From positions 1 to 33,354 of the forward strand of contig JAURYL010000024.1 of assembly GCA_030653935.1 (NCBI GenBank): a stretch of 33,354 nucleotides of DNA, read 5' to 3'. Positions 12,991 through 33,354 of this stretch are shown here, in pieces (the first letter of the stretch is position 1; each line of letters begins with the position of its first letter). The notes beneath the pieces were generated by a model. The model saw only the letters and a program-made list of their open reading frames with translations, made no database searches and was not told the origin of the DNA. The position numbers and the translations under genes are program-made. The stretch comes from Pseudomonadota bacterium. Lineage in GTDB: Bacteria > Pseudomonadota > Gammaproteobacteria > Burkholderiales > Thiobacillaceae.

Positions 12991-13067
12991 TGGCGGAGTG
13001 GACGGGACTCGAACCCGCGACCCCCGGCGTGACAGGCCGGTATTCTAACCGACTGAACTACCACTCC
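12991..13067 (-). tRNA. tRNA-Asp (anticodon GUC)
   Basis: A 77-nt tRNA with encoded CCA. The acceptor stem GGAGTGG pairs with CCACTCC, the T arm contains GGTTCGAGTCC, and the anticodon loop reads CTGTCAC, giving GUC. The discriminator base is G. All arms fold normally, and a promoter and a terminator flank it. Confidence 0.98.
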
Positions 13068-16800: not shown

Positions 16801-17550
16801 ATGATCAAACGCTTCTTCAGCAGCACCACCGAGATTCCCCAGGCAGCGACGGTTCCGCGCCACATTGCGATCATCATGGATGGCAATGGTCGCTGGGCGA
16901 AAAAACGCCTGATGCCCCGTATCGCCGGCCACGCCCAGGGTGTTGAACGGGTGCGCGACATGGTCAAGGCCTGCATCGAAAGAGGGGTCGAGTATCTGAC
17001 GCTGTTCGCCTTCAGTTCGGAAAACTGGCGCCGCCCGGAGGATGAAGTCTCGCGTCTGATGGAACTCTTCGTGATGGCGCTGGAGCGGGAAGTCGGCAAG
17101 ATGCACCGCAACGGCGTCTGCCTGAAAGTAGTGGGCGATCTCTCCCGCTTCGACCAGCGTCTCCGCGACCTGATCACCGAGGGGGAGCGGAAAACGGCGG
17201 CCAACCAGCGCCTGACCCTCACCGTCTGCGCCAACTATGGCGGCCGCTGGGACATCCTCAACGCCGCCAACAACTGGCTGCGCGACAATCCCGGTGGCGA
17301 ACTGAGCGAGGCGGTGCTGGCGCCTTACCTCTCGATGCCCTACGCGCCCGAGCCCGATCTCTTCATCCGCACCGGCGGCGAGCAGCGCATCAGCAATTTC
17401 CTGCTCTGGCAGCTGGCCTATAGCGAGTTGTATTTCACCGAGACGCTGTGGCCGGACTTCAACGCCGAAGCACTGGACCTGGCCATCGCCTCCTATCAAA
17501 AACGTGAGCGCCGCTTTGGCCGCACCAGCGAACAACTCGTCGAGCGCTAA
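16801..17550 (+). CDS. uppS: Isoprenyl transferase, undecaprenyl diphosphate synthase
   Basis: A 249-residue cis-prenyltransferase that adds isopentenyl units to farnesyl diphosphate to make the C55 lipid carrier for peptidoglycan and O-antigen. Catalytic D27 lies in [21 protein letters not shown] and the [15 protein letters not shown] block near the C terminus complete the family pattern. The ATG at 16801 has no strong Shine-Dalgarno. Its 3' end overlaps the start of cdsA by 47 nt. Confidence 0.97.
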
Positions 17551-18328
17551 GCAGCGCATCCTTACCGGTCTGGTCCTTGGCGGCGTTTTTCTTGCCGCGC
17601 TGTTGGGTTTACCGACCCCCGCCTGGGGCGCGGTGATGCTGGGAATCGTCGCGCTGGGGGCCTGGGAATGGGCGGGTCTGGTGAAATTCGGCGCCCGCGC
17701 CCGCATCGGCTACGCCCTCGCCACGCCCATCCTCGCCCTGTTGGTTTACCAGGCCGCGCCCAGGGAAATGATCGCCGCCATCGCCGTCGTCTTCTGGCTG
17801 TTGCTGGCGCCGCTCTGGCTGGCGCGCGGCTGGCCCGTGCCCGGCGGCATCGGCGGCGCGCTGCTCGGCTGGCTACTGCTGGTGCCTACCGCTTATGCCG
17901 CCGTGCATCTGCATGGCCATTCCCCGAGTTTCCTGCTTGTCTGCATCCTGCTTGCCGTGATCGCCGATAGCGCCGCCTACTTCAGTGGCCGCCGCTTCGG
18001 CCGTCACAAGCTGGCGCCGCGCATCAGTCCGGGAAAATCCTGGGAAGGCGCTCTCGGCGCCGCCTTGGCCGTGGCCATTTATGGCGCGCTGATCGGTGTT
18101 TTCGCCCTGGGCGAATCCGCCGAAAACACGGCTCGCCTGCTGGGTTACGCCTTGATCCTGTTTATCGCCAGCATCCTCGGCGACTTGTTCGAAAGCCACG
18201 CCAAGCGCCAGGCCGGCATCAAAGATAGCGGCAACTGGCTCCCCGGACACGGCGGTGTCCTTGATCGCATCGACAGTCTCTCCGCCGTGCTGCCCCTCGC
18301 CCTCTGTTTCCTGCTGCTATGGCCATGA
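17504..18328 (+). CDS. cdsA: Phosphatidate cytidylyltransferase
   Basis: A 274-residue integral membrane enzyme that makes CDP-diacylglycerol from phosphatidate and CTP, the entry point to all major phospholipids. About seven to eight hydrophobic segments fill the protein. The C-terminal signature is complete in two blocks: [13 protein letters not shown] and [12 protein letters not shown], with the metal-binding Asp residues. The GTG at 17504 gives [13 protein letters not shown] before the first helix. The TGA stop (18326-18328) is followed directly by a MITE-like insertion; before the insertion it would have overlapped the dxr ATG. Confidence 0.95.
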
Positions 18329-18329
18329 C

Positions 18330-18446
18330 CCTATATTCCTCAGTTGACCGCTCCGTGGTCCTCGAGAGGCTGCGGGAATGCTGGCGTTTGCGCCTCCGAT
18401 GGCGCGCACCAATCGGGTGGCGCCGCGTTCAACTGAGGAACATAGG
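18330..18446. mobile_element. MITE-like 117-bp element at the cdsA/dxr junction
   Basis: 22-bp terminal inverted repeats (18330-18351 and 18425-18446) match at 20 of 22 positions and share TTCCTCAGTTGA. The element is flanked by a direct repeat ATGAC (18325-18329 and 18447-18451), which looks like a target-site duplication. The 73-bp interior encodes nothing obvious. The left ATGAC holds the cdsA stop and the right one holds the dxr start codon. The right arm contains GAGGA, 6 nt from that ATG, so the element provides the dxr ribosome-binding site, while the left arm (TCCTC) can pair with it in RNA. The parent transposon is not recognised. Confidence 0.82.
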
Positions 18447-19622
18447 ATGACCCCTCGCAATCTCACCATCCTCGGCGCGACCGGCACCATCGGCGTCAAC
18501 ACCCTCGATGTGGTCGCCCGCCATCCGGACAAATTTCGTGTGGTGGCGCTCAGCGGCCTCAACCAGATCGATAAACTGGCCGCGCAGTGTCGTCAGTTCC
18601 AGCCGCGCTATGCCGTGGTGCTGGACCCCGACAAGGCGGTGACGCTGCAAGGATTGCTCGCTGGCAGCCAAACCGAAGTATTGGTGGGCATGGAGGCGCT
18701 GGAATTCATCTCCGCGCTGCCGGAAGTGGATAGCGTCATGGCCGCCATCGTCGGCGCCGCCGGCTTGCGGCCCGCGCTTGCCGCCGCCCGCGCCGGCAAG
18801 CGGGTGCTGCTGGCAAACAAGGAAACCCTGGTCATGGCCGGCCGCTTCTTCATGGAAGCGGTACGCGAACACGGCGCCACGCTGTTGCCGATCGACTCCG
18901 AACACAATGCCGTATTCCAGTCCCTGCCCGCCGATTACAACGGCGATCCGGCCCGACATGGCGTGCGCCGCATCCTGCTCACCGCCTCGGGCGGCCCGTT
19001 CCGCACCCGCGCGGTGGAGACCCTGAAAGACGTGACCCCGGAAGAGGCGGTGGCGCATCCCAACTGGGTGATGGGCAAGAAGATCTCGGTGGACTCCGCC
19101 AGCATGATGAACAAGGGCCTGGAAGTGATCGAGGCGCGCTGGCTGTTCAACGCCCGGCCCGAGCAGATCGAAGTGGTCATCCACCCCCAAAGCATCGTCC
19201 ACAGCATGGTGGAATACCTCGATGGTTCGGTGCTCGCGCAGTTATCCAACCCGGACATGCGTACCCCCATCGCCCATTCGCTGGCCTACCCGGAACGCGT
19301 CGAAGCCGGCGTCAACTGGCTGGACCTGGCGAAGCTCGGCCAGCTCACCTTCGAGGCGCCCGACTTCGCCCGTTTCCCCTGCTTGAAGCTGGCTTACCAA
19401 GCGCTCGCGGCCGGCGCCGCCGCGCCTGCCGTCCTCAATGCCGCCAATGAGGTCGCGGTCGCCGCCTTCCTCGACCGCCGCATCCCCTACCTCGGCATCG
19501 CCGCCAGCCTGGAATCCGTGCTCGGCCGACTTGCCGGAATGGCCGCCGACTCGCTGGAAGACCTGATGGTGGCCGATGCCACCGCGCGGCGGGAAGCCGA
19601 ATCCCTGATCGCGCATGGCTAA
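18447..19622 (+). CDS. dxr: 1-deoxy-D-xylulose 5-phosphate reductoisomerase
   Basis: A 391-residue enzyme of the MEP pathway that converts DXP to 2-C-methyl-D-erythritol 4-phosphate with NADPH and a divalent metal; the target of fosmidomycin. The nucleotide loop is [14 protein letters not shown] near the N terminus. The metal and substrate residues lie in [14 protein letters not shown], and [19 protein letters not shown] is the flexible-loop region. The start at 18447 gives [13 protein letters not shown] and follows GAGGA; the upstream in-frame ATG at 18378 lies inside the MITE-like element. The product feeds UppS upstream in the same operon. Confidence 0.97.
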
Positions 19623-19663: not shown

Positions 19664-19759
19664 CGTGCAGGCGAGGACGCCTGCGCTACAACCTCGGCCA
19701 GCCAACCGCCGCTCCATGTAGCGCAGGCGTCCTCGCCTGCACGCGGGCTGCAAGCCCGC
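19664..19759. repeat. 26-bp perfect inverted repeat plus a small hairpin
   Basis: Arms 19664-19689 and 19718-19743 are exact complements, each containing GCAGGCGAGGACGCCTGCGC, around a 28-nt spacer. Each arm is itself a short hairpin (GCAGGCG-AGGA-CGCCTGC). A second hairpin, GCGGGCT-GCA-AGCCCGC, follows at 19743-19759. The block fills the 153-bp dxr-rseP gap. The tail GCGCTACAACCT resembles the sequence at 8820-8831. Confidence 0.85.
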
Positions 19760-19775: not shown

Positions 19776-21125
19776 ATGACCACGCTCCTCGCCTTCCTCT
19801 TCACCCTGGCCATCCTCATCATCTTCCACGAATTCGGCCACTACTGGGTCGCGCGCCGCGCCGGGGTGAAAGTCCTGCGCTTCTCGGTCGGCTTCGGCCA
19901 GGTTATCGCCAAACGCACGGATCGCCATGGCACGGAATGGGCGTTGTCCGCGATTCCCCTGGGCGGTTACGTGAAGATGCTCGACGAACGCGAAAGCGAA
20001 GTGCCCGCCGGGCAGCTCGACCAGGCGTTCAACCGCAAGTCGCTGGGCGCGCGCGCGGCCATCGTCGCGGCTGGCCCGCTGGCCAATTTTTTGCTCGCCA
20101 TCCTGCTGTTCTGGAGCCTGTTCCTGATCGGCGTGCCGATTCTCAAGCCCATCATCGGCGAGCCGACCACGGGCAGCCCAGCGCAACTGGCTGGTATCCG
20201 GGGTGGCGAAACCATCACCCGGGTCAGCGGCGAACCGGTCGAAAGTTGGCAGGATCTGCACTGGCTGACCCTGAAACAGGTGCTGCGCGGCGACACGCTG
20301 CGCATCGAGTCGGTGGACCGGCGTGGCTCTATCACCGAGCACACCCTGGCCGTGCCGACCTTAAACGCGGAACTCGAACAGGCGCCACTGAAAGCCCTCG
20401 GCCTGGTCCGTTACCTGCCGCCGCTGGACCCGGTACTGGGTCAGCTCAGCCCGGATGGCGTCGCCACGAAGGCGGGCATGCGTGCGGGCGACCGCATCGT
20501 CGCCATCGACGGCATCACCATGGCGACCTGGGAACAGGTGGTCGACATTGTCCGCCGTTCGCCGGAACGCCCCCTGCGCCTGAGCGTGGTTCAGGCCGGA
20601 CAGACCCGGGAAGTCACCCTGATTCCGGCCGCCGCGCGCGACGGCCAGATCGAGATCGGCCGCATCGGCGCCGGGCCGCATATCGACCCGGCACTGCTCG
20701 CCGAACTGCACGGCACCGCGAGCTATGGCCCACTTGAGGCCATGTCGCGCGCCCTCTCCAGAACCTGGGAGCTCTCCGCCTTCAGCCTGGAAATGCTGGG
20801 CCGCATGATCACCGGCCAGGCCTCGCTGAAAAACCTCTCCGGCCCCCTCACCATCGCCGACTACGCGGGCCAATCCGCGCAGTCGGGCGTGGCCAGTTTC
20901 ATCGCGTTCCTGGCGCTGGTCAGCGTCAGCCTCGGGGTACTCAACCTGCTGCCCGTGCCGCTACTTGATGGCGGGCACTTGCTGTATTATTTCGCGGAAT
21001 TTTTGACCGGCCGCCCCGTCTCCGAGCGCATCCAGGAGATCGGCCAGAAGATCGGCATGGGTCTGCTTGGCCTGCTCATGTTCTTCGCCCTTTTCAACGA
21101 TTTGAACCGGCTGATTTTTCAATGA
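19776..21125 (+). CDS. rseP: Site-2 intramembrane metalloprotease RseP
   Basis: A 449-residue inner-membrane zinc protease. It makes the intramembrane cut in the anti-sigma factor RseA to release sigma-E and also clears signal peptides. The zinc motif HEFGH is at 18-22 in the first membrane helix; the third ligand lies in LLDGGHLLYY near the C terminus. Two periplasmic PDZ domains lie between (about 115-205 and 210-300), with the ligand loops QLAGIRGGETI and KAGMRAGDRIV. The ATG at 19776 matches the family start. Its TGA overlaps the bamA ATG. Confidence 0.97.
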   Translation: MTTLLAFLFTLAILIIFHEFGHYWVARRAGVKVLRFSVGFGQVIAKRTDRHGTEWALSAIPLGGYVKMLDERESEVPAGQLDQAFNRKSLGARAAIVAAGPLANFLLAILLFWSLFLIGVPILKPIIGEPTTGSPAQLAGIRGGETITRVSGEPVESWQDLHWLTLKQVLRGDTLRIESVDRRGSITEHTLAVPTLNAELEQAPLKALGLVRYLPPLDPVLGQLSPDGVATKAGMRAGDRIVAIDGITMATWEQVVDIVRRSPERPLRLSVVQAGQTREVTLIPAAARDGQIEIGRIGAGPHIDPALLAELHGTASYGPLEAMSRALSRTWELSAFSLEMLGRMITGQASLKNLSGPLTIADYAGQSAQSGVASFIAFLALVSVSLGVLNLLPVPLLDGGHLLYYFAEFLTGRPVSERIQEIGQKIGMGLLGLLMFFALFNDLNRLIFQ

Positions 21126-25504: not shown

Positions 25505-26275
25505 ATGATCCACCCCACTGCCATCGTTCATTCCGGCGCCCGCCTTGCCGCCGATGTCGAAATTGGCCCCTACTCGATCATCGGCGAACACGTCGAGATC
25601 GGCGCCGGCACGCGGGTCGGCCCGCATGTCGTGATTACCGGGCATACCCGAATCGGCGAAGGCAATCGCGTGTTCCAGTTCTGTTCGCTCGGAGAAGAGC
25701 CGCAGGACAAGAAATATGCCGGTGAACCCACGCGCCTGGAAATCGGCAACTACAACGTCATCCGCGAGTTCTGCACTTTCAACTGTGGTACCGCGCAGGA
25801 TGTGGGCGTCACCCGTCTGGGCGATCACAACTGGATCATGGCCTATGTGCACATTGCCCACGATTGCCAGGTGGGCAACCACACCATCTTCGCCAACAAC
25901 GCCACCCTGGCTGGGCATGTGCAGATCGGCGACTACGCCATCCTCGGCGGCTTCACCGGCGTGCATCAGTTCTGCCGGGTGGGCGCCCACGTCATCACCG
26001 GCATCGCCTCGGTGGTGCGCCAGGATGTTCCGCCCTTCCTCACCGTCGCCGGCAACCCGCTGGCGCCGTTCGGCATCAATGCCGAGGGCCTGAAACGGCG
26101 CGGCTATTCCGCCGAAGCCTTGAGCGCCCTGAAGCGCGCCTACAAAACCTTGTACAAATCCGGCCTTTCGCTCGCCGATGCCCAGGCGACGATCACGGCC
26201 GAAGCGGAAACGCACGCGGAACTCGTCCCCCTGGCCGAATTCCTGGCAAGCGCCGGTCGCGGCATCGTTCGGTAG
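25505..26275 (+). CDS. lpxA: Acyl-ACP--UDP-N-acetylglucosamine O-acyltransferase
   Basis: A 256-residue trimeric beta-helix enzyme, first step of lipid A synthesis. Hexapeptide repeats run from residue 1 to about 190, followed by a helical C-terminal domain (LKRRGYSAEALSALKRAY). The catalytic and assisting His residues are H119 and H116 in VHIAHDC, as in the well-studied enzyme. Length matches the family (about 255-265). It starts 8 nt after fabZ. Confidence 0.98.
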   Translation: MIHPTAIVHSGARLAADVEIGPYSIIGEHVEIGAGTRVGPHVVITGHTRIGEGNRVFQFCSLGEEPQDKKYAGEPTRLEIGNYNVIREFCTFNCGTAQDVGVTRLGDHNWIMAYVHIAHDCQVGNHTIFANNATLAGHVQIGDYAILGGFTGVHQFCRVGAHVITGIASVVRQDVPPFLTVAGNPLAPFGINAEGLKRRGYSAEALSALKRAYKTLYKSGLSLADAQATITAEAETHAELVPLAEFLASAGRGIVR

Positions 26276-32267: not shown

Positions 32268-33239
32268 ATGAAATGGTTGCTACTGATTCTTGCCCTTCCC
32301 ACGGAAAATGCCGCCGCCCGCATGCGTGCCTGGCGCGCCCTGAAGGGGGCCGGCGCCGCTTCCCTGCGTGACGGGGTCTATCTGCTGCCGCAGAGCGACG
32401 CACAGACGGCGGCCTTCGCCGAAGTGGCGCGCGACCTCGACGAATCAGGCGGCCAAGCCTGGCTGGTCACGACCGAGGTACTGGACTACCCCTTCGCGGC
32501 ACTATTCGACCGCACCGAGGAATACCACCAGATCGCAGTCGACATCCAGGAAGGCCTCGCGGCGCTGGAGGGCAATGCGGCGACGGATATTGCCCGTCTG
32601 GCGCGCAAGCTGCGCAAGAACCTCACCTCGCTGACCGCCATAGACTTCTTCCCCGGCGAGTCGCAACGGCAGGTACAGGCGCAACTGGATGAACTCGACC
32701 GTCGCATCCAGGCCCGACAGTCTCCGGGCGAGCCGACGCCCAAGGAAACCGCCATCACGCCACTCGACGCAGCCGACTACCAGGGCCGCCGCTGGGCCAC
32801 CCGGCAACGTCCGTGGGTGGACCGCGTGGCCTCGGCCTGGCTGATCCACCGCTTCATCGACCGGCAAGCGCGTTTCCTCTGGTTGACCGCCCCAGCCGAT
32901 TGCCCCGCCGACGCCCTGGGCTTCGATTTCGACGGCGCGACCTTCACACATACCGGTGAGGGACAAAAAACCCGGGTGAGTTTCGAGACCCTCATGGCCA
33001 GCTTCGGCCTGGAAGGCGATGCCGCCCTCAACAAGCTGGCCGAGCTGGTGCATTTCCTCGACGTCGGCGGCCTGCCGGTAGCCGAAGCCGCCGGCCTGGA
33101 AACCCTGCTCGCCGGCATGCGCGCCAGCCTGGCCGATGACGACGCCCTGCTGGCGGCGGCCAGCCAGGCCTTCGATTTCCTTTACACCCATTACCTGAAT
33201 ACGGGCGAAATCCCCGCGATAGGGGTAGGGAAGGACTAA
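32268..33239 (+). CDS. chrB: ChrB-like chromate resistance protein, C terminus made by an intron
   Basis: A 323-residue ChrB-family protein. The N-terminal domain (LPTENAAARMRAWRALKGAG, LRDGVYLLP) and the C-terminal domain (RRWATRQRPWVDRVASAWLI, FIDRQARFLWL, FDFDGATFTH) match both family parts. ChrB is a chromate-responsive regulator or accessory factor for the ChrA efflux pump; chrA is not in view. The last six codons (I-G-V-G-K-D) and the TAA lie inside a group II intron that begins at 33219, so the native end was displaced, probably by few residues given the near-normal length. The ATG at 32268 has no clear Shine-Dalgarno. Confidence 0.88.
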   Translation: MKWLLLILALPTENAAARMRAWRALKGAGAASLRDGVYLLPQSDAQTAAFAEVARDLDESGGQAWLVTTEVLDYPFAALFDRTEEYHQIAVDIQEGLAALEGNAATDIARLARKLRKNLTSLTAIDFFPGESQRQVQAQLDELDRRIQARQSPGEPTPKETAITPLDAADYQGRRWATRQRPWVDRVASAWLIHRFIDRQARFLWLTAPADCPADALGFDFDGATFTHTGEGQKTRVSFETLMASFGLEGDAALNKLAELVHFLDVGGLPVAEAAGLETLLAGMRASLADDDALLAAASQAFDFLYTHYLNTGEIPAIGVGKD

Positions 33240-33354
33240 CGCCCTCCCCTCCCTCCGAACCGTACGTGCGGTTCTCCCGCATACGGCTCTCCAGTTGGTG
33301 GTTTCAGCATCGTGATTGGCTCGCTTTGGCATGGGCTCCAACCAAGGTGAAGAG
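33219..33354 (-). mobile_element. 3' end of a group II intron (domains V and VI), cut by window edge
   Basis: On the minus strand, 33289-33257 folds as a domain V: GAGCCGTA pairs with TACGGTTC, the AGC catalytic triad is at the start, and the upper stem GCGG/CCGC closes a GAGA-type loop. Domain VI follows at about 33252-33219: GGGG pairs with CCCC, GGG with CCC, and one A (33226) is bulged. That A is 7 nt before the intron end, the standard distance for the branch point. The intron ends in CCCCTAT. Domains I-IV and any reverse transcriptase lie beyond the right edge. It is antisense to chrB. Confidence 0.85.

Follow-up and report, generated by a model that had tools for sequence, protein, structure and literature searches.

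A MITE-like element in the cdsA/dxr stop/start overlap of a Thiobacillaceae bacterium and its dispersed repeat family, which splits such overlaps more often than control sites

Introduction

Short stop/start overlaps between neighbouring genes are thought to set the ratio of partner proteins via translational coupling. The ERIC/IRU sequences of Enterobacteriaceae are palindromic intergenic repeats of near-fixed length (about 127 bp), which insert at TA, have no known transposase and are found in many genera. Their sequence is unlike that of the repeat family described here, and we know of no habit of ATGA-overlap splitting in them. Correia elements of Neisseria make a TA duplication and have other terminal inverted repeats (TIRs), and the REP/RAYT palindromes are small hairpins with GTAG that have no TIR-bounded unit; both resemble the present family in being high-copy palindromic repeats close to proteobacterial genes. 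The IS1031 group of the IS5 family makes a 3-bp TNA target duplication and has a TIR sequence other than that of the present family. Its TNA target matches the TNA core of the sites used here, but 60 of 115 copies here have a 5-bp duplication and no transposase was found.

MITEAba12 of Acinetobacter is described as 111-114 bp long, with 9-bp duplications without clear sequence and with co-resident parent IS elements (PMC6382973). The present family is like it in being short and non-coding, with matched TIRs, target duplications, uniform length and presence in many genomes, and differs in its 234-bp mode, its WTNAW target, the lack of any parent found and the excess at gene overlaps. QMITE1 and QMITE2 of Coxiella are MITE-like, have stable stems and can sit at the 3' ends of genes, where an in-frame 3' extension is reported (PMC5896051), whereas here a stop and a start are rebuilt together with a new ribosome-binding-like sequence.

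The window analysed in this study is a stretch of 33,354 nucleotides from a bacterium of the Thiobacillaceae (contig JAURYL010000024.1, positions 1 to 33,354, forward strand). An earlier note, made from its sequence, had proposed that a MITE-like insertion split a 4-bp ATGA overlap between cdsA and dxr and became the ribosome-binding site of dxr. The family to which the insert belongs is apparently undescribed in the open-access literature searched: six family strings of 15-18 nt had no match there, topic searches gave no description of it, and for the TIR core searched as a text string the titles among the matches listed look unrelated. This study adds a size-constrained repeat family to the Betaproteobacteria.

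Results

The cdsA gene (phosphatidate cytidylyltransferase; 17504-18328, forward strand, start taken from the ORF list; Pfam PF01148 CTP_transf_1, E 1.9e-53) is followed on the same strand by dxr (1-deoxy-D-xylulose 5-phosphate reductoisomerase; 18447-19622; Pfam PF02670, PF08436 and PF13288). Between them the earlier note had described a 117-bp insert with 22-bp TIRs (two mismatches) between ATGAC repeats, and an inverted-repeat search recovered it (18330-18446, forward strand). The two arms, at 18330-18351 and 18425-18446, are 22 nt long, 91% complementary and separated by a 73-nt spacer. ATGAC at 18325-18329 is identical to ATGAC at 18447-18451, one on either side of the insert; read from the sequence, the cdsA stop codon TGA (18326-18328) lies within the left copy and the dxr start codon ATG within the right one, as claimed. 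A Shine-Dalgarno-like GAGG at 18435-18438, predicted to pair with CCTC of the left arm, is located 8 nt upstream of this ATG. The ATGA junctions that the note had assigned to rseP/bamA, lpxD/fabZ and lpxB/rnhB (gene names are those of the note) were found at 21122, 25042 and 27444, and the window has one further ATGA junction at 25505. No Rfam covariance model matched the insert at gathering score; the matches in the window are one tRNA and one group II intron.

The dxr loci were taken from 22 other genomes of the same genus, and 21 of these yielded dxr (G005 did not). The insert is absent from the cdsA/dxr junction in all 21. In 19 of them the two genes meet in an exact in-frame ATGA overlap whose TGA closes the long upstream frame; the overlap is longer in the other two (G008 and G009). 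Two genomes of the same family, G023 and G024, are also without the insert and have ATGA, the upstream frame read in G024 being 189 codons long. Alignment of the window to G011 and G022, each of which has one ATGAC here, gave a single clean gap of 122 columns, which is 117 plus 5 (one ATGAC). The former ATGA overlap is thus found as an empty site in relatives. Far from being conserved at this junction across distant genera, the insert is lacking even in same-genus relatives, and empty sites and dispersed copies are both present. We regard the insertion history of the 117-bp element as established, and the historical half of the earlier reading is strongly supported.

Two other junctions that carry a family member, those of ftsX and acpS, were compared with relatives by eye. 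At ftsX, 14 of 19 relatives have an overlap (ATGA or TGATG), three have stop and start apart (G001, G015 and G022) and two were unreadable (G005 and G020); no TIR was seen at this junction among the 19. The ancestral overlap may have been TGATG or ATGA, since the nearest relatives read TGATGAAAGCC. The site is ATGAA in relatives, as against ATGAA on one side of the insert and TTGAA on the other in the window genome, where ftsX starts with TTG instead of the ATG of insert-free relatives. This copy is therefore a case of imperfect duplication with an empty site in relatives. At acpS, five relatives (G022, G019, G017, G011 and G006) show ATGA following the same upstream sequence, without a TIR, and the ancestral AGGAGG is now separated from the start by the element.

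In the host genome, the TIR pattern (at most one mismatch) was found at 37 sites, which include the two of the window and possibly a few non-members among those with one mismatch, and at 1 site for the reversed-pattern control. Because of these counts and the clean 122-column gap, the inverted repeat is not a product of chance. The genome has about 18 copies, the window copy included, as read from these sites; BLAST with the insert against its own genome gave nine matches at E < 1e-4, self included. Further copies with 5-bp duplications, which the note had suggested looking for, were thus found in the genome itself and also beyond it. The paired copies listed for this genome are mostly 234 bp long, with derivatives of 111, 117, 118, 147 and 246 bp. 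A 234-bp copy on contig C59 is 94% identical to the window copy over the first 97 bp. The family TIR ends are CCTNNNNNCCTCAGTTGA. Among 115 distinct paired copies from all sources, 75 of which come from a pattern scan of named genome contigs (at least 118 stretches), 234 bp is the mode (35/115). All paired units are short (66-407 bp, plus one of 444 bp), and a few of the long ones, such as those of 396 and 407 bp, probably result from wrong pairing. The window copy is without the inner palindrome (about 105-113 bp) found in the longer form. On this comparison, the window insert is best read as a shortened derivative of a non-coding 234-bp family.

Within the genus, the family was detected in 19 of the 23 genomes, with control counts of 0 throughout. 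Outside the genus, the 117-bp query matched none of 18 genomes. The 234-bp query matched 28 of 200 genomes and 23 of 108 genera across the order, some of the matches being short inner pieces. Paired units of 233-238 bp were present in 16 of 20 stretches inspected (12 of 15 genomes, 10 genera) and absent from four, and the full unit was not seen in three of the 15 order-level genomes inspected. The stretches of the named-contig scan that carry the family pattern include many metagenome bins; among the 80 matches listed, the titles include Azonexus, Thiobacillus, Gallionellales, Polaromonas, Sulfuricella sp. T08 and one Thiodiazotropha. Two plasmids carry diverged family members, and no family member was found in the phage sequences searched. 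Judged by these sequence matches, the family is found in many Betaproteobacteria. Copies of 234 bp that are 97% identical occupy unrelated loci in G000 and G019 (L049 and L032), which suggests fairly recent movement. A related element of 188-189 bp occurs in G022 (L366, L368 and L371), with unlike ends, CCTATTTCCCGCAGTTGCAGG and CCTGGAAACCGCAGTTGGTCA, and with flanks that are duplicated or nearly so.

Over the 115 distinct paired copies, the two flanks agree at five positions in 85, 107, 98, 106 and 89 cases, and the agreement drops to 21-42 of 115 when the same register is continued into the element end. The target consensus is WTNAW, whose TNA core reads as a stop codon (TGA or TAA) on one of the two strands. 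The 5-mer flanks are perfect in 60 copies, agree at four of five positions in 34 and at fewer in 21; in G044, which belongs to another family of bacteria, 19 of 20 copies have a perfect 5-mer duplication. A 3-bp TNA duplication of the IS1031 type was also considered: most copies have the TNA core on both flanks, and 5 bp are duplicated in the 60 of 115. Among the 89 copies with intact and equal TNA flanks, 78 can be explained by a 3-bp TNA duplication with the TIR extended by one base pair and 60 by a plain 5-bp duplication; 51 are consistent with either model. The terminal base is shared in 15 of 26 pairs of near-identical copies and differs in 11, and therefore it is not simply inherited and tracks the target more than the lineage. 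We have kept a duplication length of 5 bp, with a putative later matching of the two element-adjacent bases. In imperfect 5-bp duplications these adjacent bases are usually mutually complementary (26 copies; nine keep the duplication without complementarity), which looks like a post-insertion correction of the hairpin foot. Five loci (L160, L168, L169, L173 and L182) have two unlike WTNAW flanks, ATGAT and TTGAA for example; recombination between copies or misassembly could account for this.

The insert is short, with matched TIRs, a target-site duplication, an empty site, dispersed copies and no transposase gene. TIR ends at the examined loci were scanned for a distant partner; 18 had none nearby, and no autonomous parent was found at 12 of these 18 unpaired ends, where long ORFs were read by eye. 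A pair of 1571 bp (L147) was rejected as a parent: it contains an ordinary ORF together with a second element, with no transposase recognised. The site lists of eight genomes contain no TIR pair of IS length save one case in G203 (G203:C1:474855-476049, covered in part by L318), where an ORF resembling an ABC transporter ATPase lies between two complete elements separated by 720 bp. Since no autonomous parent sharing the ends was found, we call the element MITE-like.

Copies of the family split stop/start overlaps more often than matched control sites do. A junction was counted as split when one flank contained a stop closing a frame of at least 100 codons and the other a start opening such a frame; this was so for 24 of 107 copies and for 50 of 1928 control WTNAW sites at the same loci. 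With a simple home-made codon-model gene caller, run after removal of the element, overlaps were split in 20 of 103 copies and 21 of 4245 control sites, and outside gene interiors in 20 of 90 copies and 21 of 1221 controls. When non-interior sites were matched by 5-mer (n = 86; four copies whose 5-mer had no control were left out), 20 overlaps were observed against 1.7 expected from these home-made gene calls, and for ATGA-type sites only, 17 of 44 copies and 34 of 673 controls were at overlaps. Because the caller misses genes (1028 of the 4245 control sites were called intergenic), these overlap ratios are inflated; the ratio of overlaps to other gene-end sites, in which intergenic sites are not used, was 20:24 observed against 1.7:12.1 expected. 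In G044, 4 of 20 copies and 8 of 657 controls were at overlaps (p 2e-4), and outside gene interiors 4 of 18 and 8 of 141 (p 0.03); here one of 21 rows (362 bp, L333) was dropped for a shared end, and the L333 control sites are counted twice.

The split pairs backed by Pfam are cdsA/dxr, ABC ATPase/FtsX, two LptF/LptG proteins and POR/Fer4, and for ACPS and AroE the downstream gene alone has Pfam backing; ftsE/ftsX and lptF/lptG are thus among the pairs split. The inserts in split pairs are 85-351 bp long, and the flanks of the 24 agree at five of five positions in 11, at four in nine and at three or fewer in four. Orientation looked biased when judged by end type (15 to 3, with 6 unclear), but alignment of whole elements gave 12 to 6 (p 0.24), and the bias was dropped as unproven. 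Four more junctions in the same genome look like split stop/start pairs: L028 (C82), L003 (C106), L013 (C69) and L007 (C102).

GAGG is located 8 nt upstream of the start codon in 23 of the 24 split pairs, a count to be read with the named-contig scan in mind, which favours GAGG copies because its pattern requires CCTCAG at one end. The ancestral 20 nt before the dxr start, TGTTTCCTGCTGCTATGGCC, have no obvious Shine-Dalgarno sequence. None of 200 dinucleotide shuffles folds as well as the insert strand (z -3.57), and in the free RNA GAGG is predicted to be buried in the TIR stem, with a probability of being unpaired of 0.000. The claim that the transcript can fold over the dxr start region agrees with the fold model. 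When a ribosome was modelled over the left arm as far as 18336, 18338, 18340 or 18342, the accessibility of GAGG was 0.000, 0.246, 0.214 and 0.019, respectively. Melting of the stem foot alone may not suffice, since the modelled terminating ribosome leaves GAGG at 0.00-0.25. From its spacing and the predicted fold, the element would offer a correctly placed but buried Shine-Dalgarno-like sequence. A simple scan of 18100-18600 found no sigma-70-like promoter and no terminator. Sister subfamilies have CGGCAGTTGA, CCGCAGTTGA or CAGCAGTTGA, and lack GAGG because CGGC, CCGC or CAGC replaces CCTC. In 20 stretches examined, none of the nine no-GAGG copies is at an overlap, a small sample in which three are of the 188-189 bp kind. 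The GAGG-less subfamilies and the predicted full pairing of GAGG weaken the reading of the element as a purpose-built ribosome-binding site. It is plausible that the insert serves as ribosome-binding site and structured leader of dxr, a role that would fit its anatomy and the modelled RNA fold.

Discussion

We consider it very probable that a non-autonomous MITE-like element entered the ATGA at which cdsA and dxr overlapped and duplicated ATGAC, with a putative use of its GAGG and a predicted masking by the stem. This would have been a lineage-specific insertion of an element that targets WTNAW. Insertion into an ATGA overlap rebuilds the upstream stop and the downstream start, because the duplicated TNA is a stop and ATGA holds both. 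After the insertion the reading frames of CdsA and Dxr are whole, and the ancestral upstream sequence has moved about 120 bp from the dxr start. The GAGG of the element end, 8 nt from the start, may now serve dxr. It may be masked by the TIR stem, at whose foot the cdsA stop is located. If so, translation of dxr would hinge on opening of the stem and no longer on an overlapping stop and start.

Two other accounts of the origin of the insert were weighed. In one, it would be an assembly artefact, made by a repeat-mediated join of two contigs. The window is indeed one of 135 contigs, and certain other contigs terminate at family copies; however, the flanks on both sides are syntenic with relatives, the ATGAC duplication is perfect, and the window copy is distinct from the others found (the next best is 93-94% identical over about 100 bp), and an artefact is very improbable. 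In the other, the insert would be an ancestral, covariation-conserved riboregulator of dxr that merely looks like a transposon. The strong hairpin and the co-variation of the outer TIR bases across subfamilies agree with this, but such co-variation is expected for any transposon with matched ends, the insert family is dispersed over many other loci, and no Rfam family was matched at gathering score. As an ancestral trait of dxr, the riboregulator is refuted by the 122-column gap and by the insert-free junction in all 21 same-genus relatives with dxr, and we give it hardly any credence.

The cause of the excess at overlaps is a separate question, whose answers are compatible with the same insertion history. 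It is reasonably probable that survivorship alone accounts for it: the element would insert at WTNAW anywhere, and overlaps would look favoured because an insertion there harms neither gene while others are purged. Stop-only sites (8 against 2.8 expected) and start-only sites (16 against 9.3) are also above expectation, and only 13 of 103 insertions, as against 3024 of 4245 control sites, are within called genes. Survivorship fits less well with intergenic insertions, which are presumably tolerated too and yet are below expectation (42 against 72.2, though the genes missed by the caller inflate the intergenic controls), and with an overlap excess of about 12-fold after 5-mer matching. A rather doubtful proposal is that of an operon-adapted transposon, TNA-targeting and ATGA-preferring, with an outward ribosome-binding site at each end, which would regenerate stop, start and Shine-Dalgarno sequence at each insertion; the TIR stem would keep stop and start adjacent for the handover of ribosomes across the insert. 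If this is true, coupling has been rewired repeatedly in core operons (cdsA/dxr, ftsE/ftsX and lptF/lptG) by a mobile element. As for dxr itself, the insert may instead be a neutral or mildly harmful passenger, with dxr expressed from elsewhere or at a lower level and GAGG playing no part. We hold this to be possible though not the likelier course: the predicted full pairing of GAGG and the sister subfamilies without it speak in its favour, whereas the simple scan of 18100-18600, which gave no sigma-70-like promoter, and the ordinary spacing of GAGG in 23 of 24 split pairs, even in a search whose pattern favoured such copies, speak against it. The absence of the nine no-GAGG copies from overlaps points the same way, in a sample too small to decide.

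Insertion of a MITE-like element into the overlap thus remains our preferred reading of the cdsA/dxr junction, which is one case among many and shows one route by which overlapping genes separate. An element that repeatedly enters overlaps, leaves the frames intact and adds a ribosome-binding-like sequence amounts to a natural replicated experiment on the role of overlaps. The three junctions compared with relatives (cdsA/dxr, ftsX and acpS) each have counterparts that overlap and carry no insert, and so allow expression to be compared between the two arrangements.

Some other features of the window were noted. The tRNA match in Rfam is at 12994-13067 (reverse strand), and the group II intron match (59.9 bits) is near the end of the window, at 33219-33291 (reverse strand). 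Between dxr and rseP, at 19664-19743, there is a 27-bp perfect inverted repeat with arms 26 nt apart, which belongs to a second, REP-like repeat family with 37 matches in the same genome, its own site counted.
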